Positions 4,714 through 12,589 of a stretch of DNA of 29,019 nt are shown one piece after another. A model generated the notes under the pieces. It made no database searches. It had not been told where the DNA came from and saw only the letters and a list, made by a program, of their open reading frames with translations. The stretch is from a virus, in IMG/VR virus record IMGVR_UViG_3300046804_003818, positions 1 to 29,019 of that record; one strand, 5' to 3'. Numbering within the stretch: the stretch's first letter is position 1; each line of letters starts with the position of its first letter. The translations under genes and the position numbers were made by a program.

Positions 4714-4729
4714 AGTTTAATATTTAGCG
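4711..4729 (-). promoter_or_regulatory. compact stop/late-box/start element before the 552-residue gene
   Basis: Minus strand: CTAAATA (complement of 4721-4727) contains the bilin reductase stop TAA, followed by TTAAACTATG with the next start. 17 of 19 positions match the element at 14920-14938 before the 464-residue membrane protein gene. Confidence 0.45.
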
Positions 4730-5407
4730 TATTTCTGGGAACAAACAATCCTGTATAAAAACACGCACATCTTCTTCATCAAGCCCTAAACTAGCCATAA
4801 CTTTTGGTGTATGCGGATTTTGCTTTTGATTTAGGCAGTAAAAGTTTTGTCTTTCTGTAGAATTAGGAACAGTGTTATTTGTTTCCCCTACAGTTTCTAA
4901 ATAATGATTTACCAGTATGTGTGCTAAACTTGAAATTTGTGACAATTCTTCATCGTCCTGCACATTGCCTGCTGCTATCATATTAGTGCTAAAAATACGT
5001 TTTGCCCAATCTGGTAATTCACGCTTTTTAATCCACTCGTAACGACTAACTTCATCTCCAAAGTAGTCTAGCATAGGATGTTGTTTAGCTACAGGACTGT
5101 AGTCAATAAAACAGCCAGTAATTTTGTTTTTACCAGCTATTACGTCAAACCCAAATATAGGCGCAGGATTGTGTATATGCGGGAAAATGCAACAGTGCAT
5201 CATCCACAGTCCTTTTTTCTCCCTTGCATCCACAACGTCCACATGCGCCCGTCTGTACAGTCCTGAAGACCATACACGGTTAACCCATCCAGGCTGGTTA
5301 AACCGTTCCATGCCCAACTCAAAAATTTCTTGACCGGTTTCATTAAACTTATTTTCTAATAATTTTTGAATTTGAATAAGTTCGTTCCAGACCTTACTCT
5401 CCGTCAT
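4724..5407 (-). CDS. pcyX: ferredoxin-dependent bilin reductase, PcyX/PcyA type
   Basis: These enzymes reduce biliverdin IXalpha with ferredoxin electrons. The 227 residues follow the PcyA layout: 'YRRAHVDVVD' (51-60), 'LWMMHCCIFPH' (67-77), 'PIFGFDVIAGKNK' (83-95), 'IDYSPV' (101-106) and the C-terminal helix ending DCLFPEIR. H71 and D88 match PcyA catalytic His88 and Asp105; H55 matches His74. At the Glu76 position, used by PcyA for 18-vinyl reduction, there is D57. Phage PcyX enzymes from uncultured marine viruses are PcyA-like in sequence yet make phycoerythrobilin, so phycoerythrobilin is the likeliest product (inferred). The ATG overlaps the end of the heme oxygenase gene by 14 bases, so the two are probably translationally coupled. 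It is the last gene of clpS-ho-pcyX. Confidence 0.85.
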   Translation of the reverse strand: MTESKVWNELIQIQKLLENKFNETGQEIFELGMERFNQPGWVNRVWSSGLYRRAHVDVVDAREKKGLWMMHCCIFPHIHNPAPIFGFDVIAGKNKITGCFIDYSPVAKQHPMLDYFGDEVSRYEWIKKRELPDWAKRIFSTNMIAAGNVQDDEELSQISSLAHILVNHYLETVGETNNTVPNSTERQNFYCLNQKQNPHTPKVMASLGLDEEDVRVFIQDCLFPEIR

Positions 5408-5939
5408 ATAGGTCTTTCATCATCTTAATAGCATATTCAAATGCTACACGAGCTTCGGGTCCTAGATCGTCAGTTAACTCTTGACGAATCTGTGCTTTTA
5501 AGTAATCTTCATTGTCAAAATGATAAAACTTTCCAGAACTAATGTGTGCAACTTGTCTTGCAATAATTTGACCGCCATACAAATCGCCCATATGTCGACA
5601 ATATAAGTGAGCTCTAATTAATTGCTTACGCTCAGGATCATTACCTAGTTTATGCAAATATGCTTGATACTCTAATGTTGCAGGGGTTAGATAATAATAG
5701 TCACCGTCATCTAATTCTAGAAAGTCTGCATGGATAGCACGTAGCCTAGGCAATAGCTGTAGATTTGCAAAAAACCCTTGACGCTTACAGTACCACTCAA
5801 TTGGGTCATAAATGGCTAATAAATTGTACAGATAATTTCTGTAATCTTTTTTTTCAATTTTGCCGCTTAACAATAGCTGGGCAAATTTTGTAGTTTCTGC
5901 TTCGTGATGCAGATCTTGTGTAATTTCTCGTAGACTCAT
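5394..5939 (-). CDS. hemO: heme oxygenase (biliverdin-forming)
   Basis: Opens heme to biliverdin, CO and iron, supplying substrate to the neighbouring reductase. The 181-residue protein has the proximal-helix motif LHHEAE (H11 as heme ligand; the family pattern is H..AE) and the distal-helix motif RHMGDLYGGQ (115-124; GDL.GG is the family signature), plus the 'F...L' N-terminal helix. It ends shortly after the last core helix, without the C-terminal extension of eukaryotic enzymes, as usual for cyanobacterial and phage forms. The ATGA at 5936-5939 is shared with the clpS stop codon, and the 3' end overlaps pcyX by 14 bases. The three genes form one translationally coupled unit. The presence of reductant-dependent partners (ferredoxin) in this phage cannot be judged from the window. 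Confidence 0.93.
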   Translation of the reverse strand: MSLREITQDLHHEAETTKFAQLLLSGKIEKKDYRNYLYNLLAIYDPIEWYCKRQGFFANLQLLPRLRAIHADFLELDDGDYYYLTPATLEYQAYLHKLGNDPERKQLIRAHLYCRHMGDLYGGQIIARQVAHISSGKFYHFDNEDYLKAQIRQELTDDLGPEARVAFEYAIKMMKDLYDGE

Positions 5940-6283: not shown

Positions 6284-6312
6284 ATTATATTACTTAACCT
6301 CTACAATGTCAA
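6284..6312 (-). promoter_or_regulatory. consensus sigma70 promoter for clpS-ho-pcyX
   Basis: On the minus strand TTGACA (6307-6312), a 17-base spacer and TATAAT (6284-6289), all matching consensus. The -35 box and spacer lie in the last codons of hsp20. It would start transcription about 40 bases upstream of the clpS ATG, making the bilin/ClpS unit an early, host-polymerase-read operon independent of hsp20. Confidence 0.8.
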
Positions 6313-6736
6313 TTACCCTGGCTTTCTTTTCTTCGGGAATAACATATTCAAGATTGATAGTTAGTATGCCATCTTTAATTTCGGCACCCTTGACTACCAT
6401 GTGTTCGGCCAATTGCCAACTGCGTTCAAAGTCTCTGCTACTCAAACCTCTATGTAAGTATTGGCGAGTAGAAGATTCATTTGGTGTTTCGCTAGAACCT
6501 CGAACAGTCAACATGTCCTGTTCAATTTCTACAGCGATTTCGTGCTTTTTAAATCCAGCCACTGCAATTTCTATTACATAGTGTGTGTCATCAGTCTTGA
6601 CAACATTGTGTGGGGGATAGTTTGTAGTCAATTGATTTGCAAAACGTGCTTCGAATCCATCGAACAGTCTGTCAAATCCTACTAGTGCTCTATTTAGAGC
6701 CTGCGTATCAAAACGAGTCATAGTTCCATTATTCAT
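6290..6736 (-). CDS. hsp20: small heat shock protein Hsp20/IbpA type
   Basis: ATP-independent holdase that keeps unfolding proteins soluble for DnaK and GroEL. 148 residues: a short N-terminal arm with 'FDRLFDGF' typical of IbpA/B, then an alpha-crystallin domain (about 40-140) with 'YVIEIAVAGFKKHEI', 'MLTVRG', 'YLHRGLSSRDFERSW' and 'GILTINL', and a C-terminal I-D-I anchor motif. Hsp20 genes are common in T4-like cyanophages, where a virion-assembly role is suspected. SD AAGGAGA precedes the ATG. Its leader contains a hairpin and an 18-base sequence identical to the dnaK leader. It is downstream of groEL, separated by 96 bases holding an ATAAATA box. Confidence 0.95.
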   Translation of the reverse strand: MNNGTMTRFDTQALNRALVGFDRLFDGFEARFANQLTTNYPPHNVVKTDDTHYVIEIAVAGFKKHEIAVEIEQDMLTVRGSSETPNESSTRQYLHRGLSSRDFERSWQLAEHMVVKGAEIKDGILTINLEYVIPEEKKARVIDIVEVK

Positions 6737-6741
6737 AATTT

Positions 6742-6794
6742 TCTCCTTAATTAAGCAAGAATAGTGTATGCGGCCTCACCCGAGCACCGCATAC
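6742..6794 (-). promoter_or_regulatory. hsp20 leader: hairpin plus conserved 18-mer
   Basis: Minus strand order: stem GTATGCGG (complement of 6787-6794) / CCGCATAC (complement of 6766-6773) with a loop that can add a CTC/GAG pair, then CTTGCTTAATTAAGGAGA (complement of 6742-6759), which includes the SD. The same 18 bases occur before dnaK and a close variant before groES. Confidence 0.55.
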
Positions 6795-6795
6795 T

Positions 6796-6802
6796 TATTT
6801 AT
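6796..6802 (-). promoter_or_regulatory. ATAAATA box, candidate phage late promoter for hsp20
   Basis: ATAAATA on the minus strand, 60 bases upstream of the hsp20 ATG and 30 bases downstream of the groEL stop. It fits the T4-type late promoter box (TATAAATA) at six of the last seven positions or better. AT-rich background makes a single hit weak evidence. Confidence 0.4.
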
Positions 6803-6832
6803 TTTACAATGTCTGTGTGTTTAAGTCAAATA

Positions 6833-8464
<1,632 letters not shown>

Positions 8465-8752
8465 TTATTCGACAATAGCTAGAACATCATCTTCTTTAAG
8501 AACAATGTGTTCTACATCGTTAACTTTAACAGTCTGTCCGGCATACTTTGTATACAGTACAGTATCCCCTTCTTTAATAGACAAAGGTAATACTTTACCA
8601 TCTTCTGTAACTTTGCCTTTGCCTACAGCAAGTACTTTACCTTGTTGTGGTTTTTCCTGTGCATTATCAGGAATAAAGATACCGGCTTTAGTTACAGTTT
8701 CACTGTCTAAAGGTTTAATAATGATTCTATCATGTAATGGTTTTAATTGCAT
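8465..8752 (-). CDS. groES: GroES co-chaperonin (Cpn10)
   Basis: 95-residue heptameric lid of GroEL. Starts [16 protein letters not shown], with the mobile loop at about 17-35 carrying the hydrophobic tripeptide I-F-I (family I-V-L or I-V-I) that docks on GroEL, followed by [17 protein letters not shown] and the roof region '[21 protein letters not shown]'. It is an ordinary bacterial GroES by length and sequence, unlike the large T4 gp31. A bacterial-type GroES together with a dedicated GroEL means the phage supplies the whole chamber. The leader has a GC hairpin and a variant of the chaperone leader sequence. Confidence 0.96.
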
Positions 8753-8757
8753 TTTAA

Positions 8758-8805
8758 TCTCCTTTTAAAGCAAGAAAAATTGGGGGCCTTTTAGAGCACC
8801 CCCTT
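8758..8805 (-). terminator. hairpin between dnaK and groES (weak terminator and groES leader)
   Basis: Minus strand GGGGG (complement of 8799-8803), 12-base loop, CCCCC (complement of 8782-8786), then AATTTTTC. It could attenuate dnaK transcription. It is followed by CTTGCTTTAAAAGGAGA (complement of 8758-8774), a near copy of the dnaK/hsp20 leader 18-mer, which ends in the groES SD. Confidence 0.5.
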
Positions 8806-8813
8806 AAAGATGC

Positions 8814-10682
8814 TTAGGTAGCCTCTGTTACCTCAGCATCAACTATACCGTCAGCTTTGTCCTTTTCTTTAGCCTCTTTGGCTTTACGAACAGGTTCAGT
8901 TGCGGCTAGTAAATCGCTCAATGTTTGAGTGACTTTATCCTTATCGTTGGCATTGGCAGCTTCTTGGAAGTTCTTGATAGCTTCTTCAATCTTATCTTTT
9001 TCTTCCTGGCTTAGTTTGCTTTCAACTTCGCTTAGGTCCTTACGGATAGAATGTATCTGTGCTTCTGCCATATTGCGAGTTTCAATTTCTTCGCGTTTCT
9101 TTTTATCGTCTTCAGCATTAGCTTCGGCTTCTTTGACCATACGATCAATTTCTTCACTGCTAAGTCCGCTATCACTTTTGATAGTGATCTTGTTTTCTTT
9201 GCCAGTATTTTTATCCTTAGCACTGACATGCATAATGCCATTAGCGTCAATGTCAAGGGTAACTTCAATTTGTGGAGTTCCACGTGGAGCAGGATTAATA
9301 CCTTCTAGGTTAAATTCACCTAATAGTTTATTATATTGTACTAGCTCACGCTCGCCTTGGAAGACTTTAATAGTCACAGCTGGCTGGTTGTCGTCGGCAG
9401 TTGAAAATATTTGTTGTGCTTTAGTTGGGATAGTTGTATTCTTTTGAATTAACTTGGCCATAATGCCGCCCATAGTTTCGATGCCAAGGCTTAACGGTGT
9501 AACGTCTAACAGTAAAACATCATTACGGTCACCTGCTAGAACAGCACCCTGAACTGCGGCACCTGCAGCCACTGCTTCGTCAGGGTTAACATCTTTGCGT
9601 GGTGCTTTGCCAAACAGTTTTTCAACTATTTCTTGTACCTTGGGCATACGTGTCATGCCACCAACTAAGATAACTTCGTCAATGTCTCCAGCAGTCACAC
9701 CTGCGTCTTTCATTGCTGTCTTGCAAGGCTCAATTGACCGCTGAATTAATTCATCCACTAGGTTTTCTAATTTAGCACGAGTTAATTTAATGTTCATGTG
9801 CTTAGGACCTGTAGCATCAGCAGTTACGTAAGGTAAGTTAACATCAGTTTGAGCACTGCTTGACAATTCAATCTTGGCCTTTTCAGCGGCTTCTTTTAGA
9901 CGTTGTAGTGCTAGAACATCTTTGGTAAGATCAACGCCAGTGTCTTTCTTGAACTCATCAATCAAGTAGTCCATAATACGCTGGTCAAAGTCTTCACCGC
10001 CGAGGAATGTATCACCGTTAGTAGACAACACTTCAATTTGCTTGTCGCCGTCAACATTGGCAATTTCAATAATGCTAACGTCAAATGTACCACCACCTAA
10101 GTCGTACACAGCAATTTTACGATCCTGTTTGTCAGCTTTATCAACACCGTAGGCTAATGCGGCTGCGGTAGGTTCGTTGATAATACGCAGTACTTCTAAA
10201 CCAGCAATTTGTCCAGCGTCTTTAGTAGCTTGACGTTGTTGATCGTTAAAGTAAGCAGGAACTGTAATAACTGCTTTGGTAACTTCTGTGCCCAAGTAGT
10301 CTTCAGCAGTCTTTTTCATCTTACGTAGCACTTCTGCTGAAATTTGTGGGGGTGCTAGTTCTTTTTCATTTGCACGTACCCATGCATCGCCGTTTTTAGA
10401 TTCCATAATCTCATATGGCATTAGGTCAATGTCTTTTTGTACAGCCTGTTCTTTAAACTTGCGTCCAATTAAACGCTTGGCTGCATAGATAGTGTTTTTG
10501 GGGTTTGTAACAGCTTGTCGTTTTGCTGAAGCGCCAACGAGGATCTCATCATTAGCATAGGCAACAATACTAGGTGTAGTACGAGCACCTTCGCTATTTT
10601 CAATTATTTTGGGAGTTCCGTTTTCGATGACTGCAACGCAGCTATTGGTAGTACCTAAATCGATACCGATGACTTTGCTCAT
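8814..10682 (-). CDS. dnaK: DnaK (Hsp70) chaperone
   Basis: Complete Hsp70, 622 residues (E. coli 638). ATPase domain: phosphate loops [13 protein letters not shown] (5-17) and '[14 protein letters not shown]', adenosine loop '[13 protein letters not shown]'. The interdomain linker region '[19 protein letters not shown]' leads to a peptide-binding domain ('NTTIPTK', '[15 protein letters not shown]') and a helical lid with an acidic end, [12 protein letters not shown]. No DnaJ or GrpE gene is in the window, so it presumably uses host co-chaperones (inferred). Strong bacterial character. Its leader carries an ATAAATA box, a 10-base-pair hairpin and the 18-mer shared with hsp20, with SD AAGGAGA. 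Confidence 0.97.
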
Positions 10683-10776: not shown

Positions 10777-11358
10777 TTAGCGATTGTTAGCAAGTGGGCG
10801 GAAATATTCGCCGTCGGTAGAACTAGCAGTGCGTAGTTTTTGAAATATATTTTGAACACCCACAGCCTGGTTCCACGCATCCTCTAACGCATGGTGTTTT
10901 AATACAGGGGGACGCTTAGGATCAATGCCAATGTCAAAAAGTGTGCGTGTACAACGAACCTGCCAAAAACTCCACGGAACGGCTTTATTAATTTTCTTAA
11001 AAATGTGTTCGCAAATCACCACGTCAAAGGCAGCACCGTGACTCCATACACGTTTAGCACCCCAACAAAATTTATAAAGTTGATTCATTGCATCAACAAT
11101 ATCAATTCTGCCATCGGGGCTAAATGCTTCCTCTTGGGCTTCTTTACTTTGGTTTGCCCACCAGGCAATAGTGTCGTCGCTAGTAACTAAACCAATACGG
11201 TCGCAACTATCAAGATCTACTTTTACATAGAATTTTTCACAAGTTGGGTCGTTAAAATCATCACCAAAGGGGTCAAATTTAACAGCGCCAATTGTTAGGA
11301 CGGCAGCATCAGGCGATGTTGCCAGTGTTTCAAGGTCAATCATTATATCTGTAAGCAT
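10777..11358 (-). CDS. dexA: DEDDh 3'-5' exonuclease, T4 DexA-like
   Basis: 193-residue RNase H-fold exonuclease. Catalytic residues visible: D8 and E10 (MIDLETL), D112 (HGAAFDVVI) and H155...D160 (HHALEDA), i.e. the DEDDh set. The 'DTIAWWANQS' and 'VWSHGAAFD' blocks match the DexA/Rv2179c-like branch, whose members act on DNA or RNA 3' ends; T4 DexA degrades DNA. The preferred substrate cannot be told from sequence. It has a perfect sigma70 promoter whose -10 box ends only 6 bases before the ATG, so the message is probably leaderless. It lies upstream of dnaK and divergent from the terC riboswitch. Confidence 0.85.
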   Translation of the reverse strand: MLTDIMIDLETLATSPDAAVLTIGAVKFDPFGDDFNDPTCEKFYVKVDLDSCDRIGLVTSDDTIAWWANQSKEAQEEAFSPDGRIDIVDAMNQLYKFCWGAKRVWSHGAAFDVVICEHIFKKINKAVPWSFWQVRCTRTLFDIGIDPKRPPVLKHHALEDAWNQAVGVQNIFQKLRTASSTDGEYFRPLANNR

Positions 11359-11364
11359 TGTGCA

Positions 11365-11393
11365 ATTATAACACCAGTATAATGCAATGTCAA
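11365..11393 (-). promoter_or_regulatory. consensus sigma70 promoter, leaderless start of dexA-like gene
   Basis: Minus strand TTGACA (11388-11393), 17-base spacer, TATAAT (11365-11370), then 6 bases and ATG. The usual start point 6-8 bases past the -10 box falls on the AUG. No SD exists in the gap. Confidence 0.8.
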
Positions 11394-11407
11394 CATATTT
11401 GACAATG

Positions 11408-11414
11408 CTAAATA
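11408..11414 (+). promoter_or_regulatory. CTAAATA box upstream of the terC riboswitch
   Basis: CTAAATA on the plus strand, 5 bases before the first riboswitch stem. This is the same box seen before nrdA and the tail gene. A TATAAT on the plus strand at 11378-11383 is an alternative -10 without a clear -35. Confidence 0.4.
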
Positions 11415-11418
11415 AAAA

Positions 11419-11516
11419 TGTGGGGAGTAGCCCCCTGGTGCAATGCCAGGCACACTAATCGTCAGCACGACGAAAGTCCGGTTAGTGCGGGAAGTTTGGT
11501 TCTGGGCAAGACCATA
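11419..11516 (+). ncRNA. yybP-ykoY (Mn2+-sensing) riboswitch
   Basis: The RNA carries both signature loops of this class: GGGGAGUAGC (11422-11431) after the first strand of the closing stem and GGGCAAGACC (11504-11513) before its second strand. The closing stem UGUGG (11419-11423) pairs with CCAUA (11512-11516). Inside are hairpins CCTGG/CCAGG (11434-11438, 11446-11450) and CACTAA/TTAGTG (11453-11458, 11482-11487). The class binds Mn2+ where the two loops dock and usually turns on Mn exporters of the TerC/Alx, MntP or UPF0016 families. Here terC starts 17 bases after the closing stem, with AAGGA between, so control of translation start is plausible; I see no intrinsic terminator. Confidence 0.87.
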
Positions 11517-11533
11517 AATCTTAAGGAAAAATT

Positions 11534-12208
11534 ATGGATATCATATCCCTTGAATTCTTATGGGCACTCTTGGCCATCATTTTAATCGATGTAGTGCTAG
11601 GAGGAGAGAATGCCCTTGTTATAGCAATGGCTGCTAAACAACTACCCGAACACCTGCGTAAACGTGCTATGGTTTGGGGTACATTTGGTGCAGTAGCAGT
11701 TCGATTTGTCTGTGTAGCCGCGCTGACTTATCTGCTAATGATCCCAGGACTGCGGCTAGTAGGAGGTGCGTTACTAATTTGGATAGCATGGAAACTTACA
11801 GCAGGAAGCAATGATCATAAAGATATAAAAGCTGCCACTACATTTTGGGGTGCAATGGGTACTATAGTAATGGCAGACGCTGTCATGGGCTTAGACAATG
11901 CACTAGGTATTGCGGGTGCGGCTGGAGGCAACTGGATTTTGATCATTGCAGGATTATTAATCAGTGTTCCTATTATACTTTTTGGAAGTACTATAGTTTC
12001 ACGTATACTTGATAAATATCCTAGCGCAGTTTACATAGGTGCATTTGTACTGTACTATGTAGCAGGTAATATGATTATGCATGAGCCTTTTATCGATGAG
12101 TGGAATGATCCATTACACGATATTCTTGAAAAATCATTACCGTTTATTGCAGCAGTATTATTAACTGCTAAACAATATTACCGTTTTGAAATAAGGAAAA
12201 AGAAATGA
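11534..12208 (+). CDS. terC: TerC/YjbE-family integral membrane metal transporter
   Basis: 224 residues, about seven membrane helices. Both family metal motifs are visible: 'GGENALVIAMAAKQLP' (23-38) and 'MADAVMGLDNALGIAGAAGG' (about 112-131), each with an acidic residue next to Asn inside a helix. TerC/Alx/YjbE proteins export Mn2+ or help load secreted enzymes with Mn, and are named for tellurite resistance. The Mn riboswitch immediately upstream supports Mn as the relevant metal. SD AAGGA, 6-7 bases before the ATG. The start codon of the next small gene overlaps its stop (ATGA). It is the only large gene on the plus strand, hence an insertion relative to the surrounding gene order (inferred). 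Confidence 0.93.
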   Translation: MDIISLEFLWALLAIILIDVVLGGENALVIAMAAKQLPEHLRKRAMVWGTFGAVAVRFVCVAALTYLLMIPGLRLVGGALLIWIAWKLTAGSNDHKDIKAATTFWGAMGTIVMADAVMGLDNALGIAGAAGGNWILIIAGLLISVPIILFGSTIVSRILDKYPSAVYIGAFVLYYVAGNMIMHEPFIDEWNDPLHDILEKSLPFIAAVLLTAKQYYRFEIRKKK

Positions 12209-12375
12209 AGCCAGTTCTAATACAAACACTACACAGACACAATCAAAAGAAAAAACCTAAGAATTTAGAAACGGTTGAAATAGATCCTAGTCACGGAGGA
12301 CCGCGCGATCGAGCAGGATTCATTATCCTGCTCATTATTATAATGAGTATAATAATAGCAACGGTAATGAGTTAG
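12205..12375 (+). CDS. 56-residue single-pass membrane protein of unknown function
   Basis: The ATG overlaps the terC stop (ATGA), so it is probably translated by coupling with terC. The first 33 residues are basic and polar (HRHNQKKKPKN); residues 37-55 form one hydrophobic segment (FIILLIIIMSIIIATVM). I know no family for it. A perfect inverted repeat (GAGCAGGAT / ATCCTGCTC, 12311-12333) lies inside the coding sequence. A terminator follows 5 bases after the stop codon, so terC and this gene form a two-gene riboswitch-controlled unit. Being small, basic and membrane-bound, it could be an accessory subunit of TerC, which is inference. Confidence 0.65.
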   Translation: MKPVLIQTLHRHNQKKKPKNLETVEIDPSHGGPRDRAGFIILLIIIMSIIIATVMS

Positions 12376-12380
12376 TAATA

Positions 12381-12404
12381 AGCCCCGAAAGGGGCTATTT
12401 TTTT
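12381..12404 (+). terminator. rho-independent terminator of the terC unit
   Basis: Stem AGCCCC / GGGGCT with a GAAA tetraloop, followed by ATTTTTTT. Good bacterial-type terminator on the plus strand. Confidence 0.85.
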
Positions 12405-12415
12405 GGATGTAAAAA

Positions 12416-12589
12416 ATGGAAACACACAAACGAACACTAGTAAGAGCCGCAAGCTGGCGCATAACAGCAACTCTAGTTACTGCTTATTTTACAGGCATTA
12501 GTGGAGCAATTTTAATTAACGTATGGATGACCATAGTGCATTACATACACGAACGACTATGGTTAAAAATCAATTGGGGTAAAGAATAA
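12416..12589 (+). CDS. DUF2061-family small membrane protein
   Basis: 57 residues. The pattern 'KRTLVRAASWRITATLVT', 'TGISGAILIN' and 'HYIHERLWLKINWGKE' matches DUF2061 (R..K..SWR..A...T ... G......... YY.HER.W..I.WG), small two-helix membrane proteins of unknown function common in bacteria and some phages. It starts 12 bases after the terC-unit terminator, with only a weak SD-like GGA, so its expression must come from read-through or an unseen promoter. Its last 20 bases overlap the 3' end of the convergent minus-strand gene. Confidence 0.75.
   Translation: METHKRTLVRAASWRITATLVTAYFTGISGAILINVWMTIVHYIHERLWLKINWGKE

Follow-up and report, generated by a model that had tools for sequence, protein, structure and literature searches.

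The closest described relatives of the regulatory locus reported here are the yybP-ykoY riboswitches (RF00080) of E. coli mntP and alx, of B. subtilis and of L. lactis. For E. coli mntP, control is translational and works by hiding the initiation signals, a principle shared by the arrangement proposed below. TerC proteins, the target of such switches, have been described both to export Mn and to help in metalating exported enzymes (PMC12096827). Riboswitches have been called rare in phages, with a glutamine type being known (PMC9004378). TerC-family proteins are also encoded in Ter operons of Pseudomonas phage Kremar, Acinetobacter phage vB_AciJM_313 and jumbo phages (PMC7824862). With regard to late transcription, promoters of T4 carry TATAAATA at positions -13 to -6, while those of phage Aeh1 carry CTAAATA (PMC1524935). 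Full-text searches of open-access papers did not bring up any Mn riboswitch described for a phage.

The DNA analyzed here, referred to as the window, is a viral stretch of 29,019 nucleotides (IMG/VR record IMGVR_UViG_3300046804_003818). Judged by its sequence, the plus-strand segment 11420-11515 can be firmly assigned to the yybP-ykoY (Mn2+) riboswitch aptamers. It lies in a gap of 175 nt, flanked by an exoribonuclease gene on the minus strand and, on the plus strand, a gene for a protein of 224 aa. With good confidence, we propose that this aptamer belongs to a phage Mn2+ riboswitch which would turn on translation of TerC late in infection; Mn binding, the start site, the direction of switching, the transport and the benefit to the phage are inferred. 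The aptamer consists of the following elements:

11420-11515, plus strand: yybP-ykoY (Mn2+) aptamer, from the predicted +1 through the last base of P1.1
11420-11423, plus strand: 5′ strand of P1.1 (GUGG), pairing with CCAU at 11512-11515
11422-11430, plus strand: L1 motif GGGGAGUAG, identical in all aptamers aligned (26 phage, 45 bacterial)
11434-11450, plus strand: P2 hairpin
11453-11487, plus strand: P3, containing L3 (UCGUCA, 11459-11464) and the GNRA-capped P3.2 (GACgaaaGUC)
11490-11503, plus strand: P4 hairpin, which many related phages lack or have in reduced form
11512-11517, plus strand: 3′ switching strand CCAUAA, common to P1.1 and the anti-start helix

Similar to the switches of E. 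coli, B. subtilis and L. lactis, the RNA retains the L1, L3 and 3′ strand residues, the P1.2/P2/P3 plan and the TerC/Alx target. A preliminary description of this DNA had claimed a complete yybP-ykoY aptamer, and this claim was borne out: the loops GGGGAGUAGC (11422-11431) and GGGCAAGACC (11504-11513) are present as quoted there, the ends pair (GUGG/CCAU), and a covariance model made from bacterial sequences only matches the region. L1 and the L3 motif RUCGUCA...CGG (11459-11464, 11479-11481) show little or no variation in either alignment. The P1.1/P1.2/P2/P3 architecture is backed by covariation, with 98% of cells being paired in 26 aligned phage aptamers and 15 of 19 base pairs varying on both sides. 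The covariation measured for these 26 sequences was 0.709, compared to 0.264 ± 0.019 in shuffles and no more than 0.127 when slid; these controls do not correct for relatedness. The fold energy of the aptamer region (z = -0.35) is uninformative by itself. The 3′ strand AAGACC closes P1.1 via two G:C pairs in all 26 phage aptamers; in L. lactis, two G:C pairs nucleate the switch helix (PMC11087558), and those same pairs are kept in every phage. In contrast to bacterial yybP-ykoY RNAs, this version is phage-borne, pairs its switching strand with the start codon, often lacks P4 and is missed by RF00080. Moreover, its P1.1 is cut to 2-4 bp, as opposed to about six covarying pairs in bacteria, and has its first base at the predicted +1 of the late transcript.

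The Rfam model, which had been suggested as a check, did not provide support, as RF00080 gave no match in the window, neither at the gathering cut-off nor at E ≤ 10. This miss is uninformative, since a clear, textbook member from Bacillota also scores below the cut-off. In Thalassobacillus, an aptamer preceding a TerC-family gene (L060, 1683-1766, minus strand) reached 33.4 bits, with the cut-off at 45, and none of 14 motif-bearing loci, bacterial or phage, passed gathering. With its positive controls failing, RF00080 was dropped as arbiter. It is a model of 177 positions, the 3′ part of which seems to be misaligned on the Thalassobacillus sequence. Scanning for a pattern of conserved residues gave more than 117 bacterial loci among the matches listed, mostly from Bacillota, and a covariance model, R1, was built from 45 diverse bacterial aptamers without any phage sequence. 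R1 produced a single match in the window (11414-11519, plus strand, 53.8 bits, E = 2.5e-12), a score above those of the experimentally supported E. coli switches mntP (36.8 bits) and alx (32.9 bits), and matched the phage loci with E-values of about 1e-8 or better. Since the search motif is common to the window and the bacterial set, the agreement is partly circular for the loops; this does not apply to the helices. Two viral loci were discarded as chance pattern matches, one without any R1 match (L034) and one scoring 17.7 bits (L038). Surveys relying on the current Rfam Mn model will undercount phage riboswitches, given that RF00080 misses the whole phage group.

Two promoters of different types are found in the gap:

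11408-11414, plus strand: CTAAATA, a late promoter element of the T4/Aeh1 type, followed after five nt by the predicted +1 (G11420)
11365-11393, minus strand: sigma70 promoter TTGACA-17-TATAAT (12/12, extended -10) of the divergent exoribonuclease gene (10777-11358, minus strand)

The prediction that the transcript starts at G11420 is based on the spacing of T4/Aeh1 late promoters (PMC1524935). Like these, the phage terC leaders carry TATAAATA or CTAAATA ending at what would be -6, and a gp55-type sigma is encoded by relatives; unlike these, the element is placed such that the transcript would start inside P1.1 of a riboswitch. TAAATA precedes the aptamer by 5-8 nt in 32/32 phage copies, compared to 2/146 distinct bacterial aptamers, and its distance to GGGGAG is 5-7 nt throughout the first scan (26 aptamers) and 6-8 nt in the six of the second. 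When the aptamer was not used, TAAATA was still the top-ranking hexamer in the 60 nt before the minus-strand genes of the window (10/17 sites, p = 1.8e-7, uncorrected for 4096 hexamers), and it again came out on top when 23 other phage loci were analyzed with the aptamer promoters masked (30/134, p = 4e-18). Four riboswitch-bearing contigs encode a late sigma factor of the gp55 family (E about 1e-25), none being visible in the window itself, a 29-kb fragment. The strict occurrence of TAAATA, its enrichment before phage genes and the presence of gp55 in relatives imply that transcription should begin right at the aptamer, and a start at the first base of P1.1 would explain why this helix is so short in phages.

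It could be argued that an ordinary promoter of the host type, located further upstream, drives the switch, that the switch is active at any stage and that TAAATA is mere background. CTAAATA is indeed short and also found within genes, and coincidence can occur, as an L. lactis-like bacterial locus (L223) has TAAATA 7 nt before its aptamer. Nevertheless, we regard this explanation as unlikely in view of the phage-to-bacteria ratio, the top rank before phage genes and the gp55-type sigma of relatives, and since only one, weak sigma70-like site (9/12) was found on the plus strand between 11300 and 11420. The L. lactis-like locus itself, which lies in a bacterial/prophage context before a P-type ATPase gene, was rejected as a large-phage copy and served as bacterial positive only. 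Taking CTAAATA as the late promoter, an early and a late promoter seem to be arranged back to back in this gap, with the sigma70 side probably being the early one.

Downstream of the aptamer, the leader contains the elements of a putative start-codon platform:

11523-11527, plus strand: Shine-Dalgarno sequence AAGGA, within the loop of the anti-start hairpin
11532-11537, plus strand: UUAUGG, including the terC start codon (11534-11536), pairing with 11512-11517

The 3′ strand of P1.1 continues as CCAUAA, the complement of UUAUGG at the terC start. CCAU followed by AUGG within 45 nt occurs in 26/26 phage aptamers from the first scan and in 8/146 bacterial ones; counting all phage copies, the fraction is 26/32. 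Neighbouring pairs of the platform vary together among phages (AA/UU, UUUUA/UAAAA, AAUAU/AUAUU), and for the three variable pairs beside CCAU/AUGG 63 of 78 cells match, compared to a mean of 41 in whole-strand shuffles. In ViennaRNA folds, which leave out tertiary docking, the predicted probability of the ligand-free AUG being unpaired was 0.17 for the window and close to zero for most other phage leaders, and the cost of folding the aptamer plus P1.1 amounted to 0.6 kcal/mol in the window, with higher values elsewhere. The identity of the aptamer, its helices, the promoter element and the complementarity and covariation of the platform were shown by sequence comparison.

In the mechanism we propose, the phage late RNA polymerase, consisting of the host core and a gp55-type sigma, would start at or near G11420 and hence right at the aptamer. 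At low Mn2+ concentrations, CCAUAA would pair with UUAUGG, so that the terC start codon is buried and translation is off. At high Mn2+ concentrations, L1 and L3 would dock around the ion and P1.1 would form, thereby taking the CCAU strand off the start codon and allowing translation of terC. TerC might then export Mn2+ or deliver it to exported proteins. Since the sensor lies within the message itself, it needs no host regulator at a time when host transcription may be off. The benefit late in infection can only be inferred; Mn might be released or become unbalanced as host regulation collapses, which the phage could sense without a host regulator. We lean slightly towards the view that these phages have reworked the Mn riboswitch into a gate with two inputs, the late sigma setting when the message exists and starting it inside P1.1, and host Mn2+ setting the access to the start codon, and that three platform designs arose in phages around one aptamer.

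With respect to these designs, six phage copies (L219-L222, L224, L225) are devoid of the CCAU/AUGG platform; in the same six, the L1 strand GGGAGU is predicted to pair with ACUCUC (or ACUCC) between Shine-Dalgarno sequence and AUG. Four leaders are 187-218 nt long (L015, L026, L031, L044), and their segments could form a relay of competing hairpins. Two of them (L026, L044) and, with less clarity, L015 have a terC start that is more distant, and pairing of the released strand would be possible with a later segment beside a hairpin covering the Shine-Dalgarno sequence. Folds with forced P1.1 show this possible relay in L026 and L044 and, again less clearly, in L015; it was not seen for L031. 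All three designs would be translational, although these are predictions only.

No terminator-like site was found on the plus strand between aptamer and terC, and an intrinsic-terminator platform was therefore rejected. The same observation speaks against the idea that a yybP-ykoY-shaped RNA acts by transcription termination, or no longer senses Mn2+ and responds to another metal or to pH. The E. coli family member alx is pH-responsive as well (PMC12096827), and there are no data on metal binding by the phage RNA. However, every invariant residue of L1, L3 and the 3′ strand is kept, and terC (PF03741) starts only 18 nt after the aptamer, in agreement with the preliminary description, which had placed the aptamer directly before a TerC/Alx-type gene. 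This makes the idea improbable. An Mn2+ riboswitch controlling phage terC, as first suggested in the preliminary description, remains the best reading in light of the R1 match, the covariation in 26 phage copies and the covarying translational platform. The coupling to a late promoter, the platform at the start codon, the third ORF and the recurrence on about 30 phage contigs go beyond that description.

Searches of IMG/VR via TerC relatives and two motif scans retrieved 32 distinct phage aptamers on about 30 metagenomic viral contigs. All of them precede TerC/Alx genes, which, where complete, encode either TerC proteins of about 190-233 aa or Alx-type proteins of 313-318 aa, and the 19 contigs checked for copy number contain one aptamer each. 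The riboswitch contigs are T4-like and up to 364 kb in length, with the Gp23 capsid protein scoring over the cut-off in five. A megablast search with positions 6000-29019 of the window yielded no close cultured phage, and a comparison of the aptamer with GenBank phages no meaningful match. That an Mn switch recurs in large T4-like phages suggests shifts in free Mn2+ during infection that are large enough to be worth measuring for a phage, and it illustrates the import of host regulation into the phage late program.

With the Ter operons of cultured phages the locus shares a TerC-family protein; these operons differ in the presence of TelA/TerF/TerD, in a TerC identity of about 31-38% and in their position on a separate tree branch. 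No aptamer was found beside any of the five cultured-phage terC genes examined, and four of the five lie in or by Ter genes or in an unannotated region. The glutamine (glnA-type) riboswitch of the methylophage Melnitz and the pelagiphage Mosig (PMC9004378) resembles the present case in being found in T4-like phages of aquatic bacteria with CsgG-like genes, but differs in ligand, RNA family and target, the latter being the tmRNA/ssrA locus. The aptamer is standard, whereas the coupling to a late promoter and the start-codon platform have, as far as could be found in the open-access literature, not been described before. The window also encodes homologs of the curli-export proteins CsgG and CsgF (PF03783, PF10614; 1136-2596, minus strand), as reported for Melnitz, and permuted/betaproteobacterial-type tmRNA genes occur in riboswitch phage contigs (L014: 8563-9031, minus strand; L025: 5059-5383, plus strand).

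The closest TerC found outside phages is that of Polynucleobacter sp. AM-26B4, which is 57% identical and has an aptamer of its own. It forms one tree group with the YjbE-type phage TerC proteins (support 100/100), with the direction of transfer being unresolved. Based on this relationship a betaproteobacterial host is plausible, yet the host is not shown. The Polynucleobacter gene might also be taken to indicate a recent, non-functional capture of host DNA, in which terC and its leader hitchhiked and regulation was lost. This appears highly improbable, as the aptamer-bearing phage clade is deep, compensatory changes have occurred among the phage copies, platform and promoter are typical of phages and rare in bacteria, and a second TerC subtype (Alx, 313-318 aa) shows the same arrangement in phages.

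The genes downstream of the riboswitch are as follows:

11534-12208, plus strand: terC, 224 aa, TerC family (PF03741)
12205-12375, plus strand: ORF of 56 aa, overlapping the terC stop, without assigned family
12381-12404, plus strand: intrinsic-terminator-like stem AGCCCCgaaaGGGGCU followed by a T run
12416-12589, plus strand: DUF2061-like membrane protein, 57 aa (E = 0.0085, below the Pfam cut-off)

The terC product matches PF03741 with E = 1.7e-43 and 148.9 bits (curated cut-off 27.8); no solved homologue was found by sequence. Of the two-gene unit with terminator described earlier, the terminator-like stem could be retraced, but the plus-strand island comprises three ORFs rather than two, the third lying after the terminator. 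In L002, L003, L004 and L014, terC and the DUF2061 gene do not have the 56-aa ORF between them; DUF2061-like homologs directly follow terC in L002, L003 and L014 and, by sequence, likewise in L004. In the latter contig, a gene for a phosphate-binding-protein-like product (PF12849; 5907-6929, minus strand) adjoins the terC/DUF2061 pair.

What TerC does once translated is less certain. The switch may be real without TerC being an Mn exporter, in that the protein supplies Mn to exported proteins, by analogy with the metalation of exported enzymes by TerC proteins of B. subtilis (PMC12096827), or aids in peroxide defense, for which one could cite that aptamer-less sister phages have terC between AhpC-type and CMD/AhpD-type genes and that in L006 a CMD gene lies upstream of the switch. 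We consider this a possibility of some weight, albeit a tentative one; metalation is not excluded, and export and metalation may be a single activity.

Regarding the gene context, members examined of the sister TerC group without aptamer have CMD/AhpD-type genes beside terC, with AhpC-type genes in addition in L008 and L012. AhpC-type peroxiredoxin and/or CMD/AhpD-type genes flank terC at L008: 4311-6183, L012: 4424-6177, L010: 5677-6192 and L006: 4371-4889, in the last case with the CMD gene just upstream of the riboswitch. These neighbors hint at a link to oxidative stress. In the TerC subgroup of the window (11534-12208; L007-L013), the first conserved motif is GGEN where AGDN is usual, an exchange of Asp for Glu by which the metal preference could be altered; the bacterial TerC proteins listed retain the Asp. 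Elsewhere in the window, a heme oxygenase gene (PF01126, 2.2e-20) adjoins one for a ferredoxin-dependent bilin reductase (PF05996, 2.2e-15; 4724-5939, minus strand), and the nearest TerC relatives of this phage are not cyanobacterial. A chaperone cluster (6290-10682, minus strand) comprises Hsp20, a GroEL-like protein and a DnaK/Hsp70 of 622 aa.
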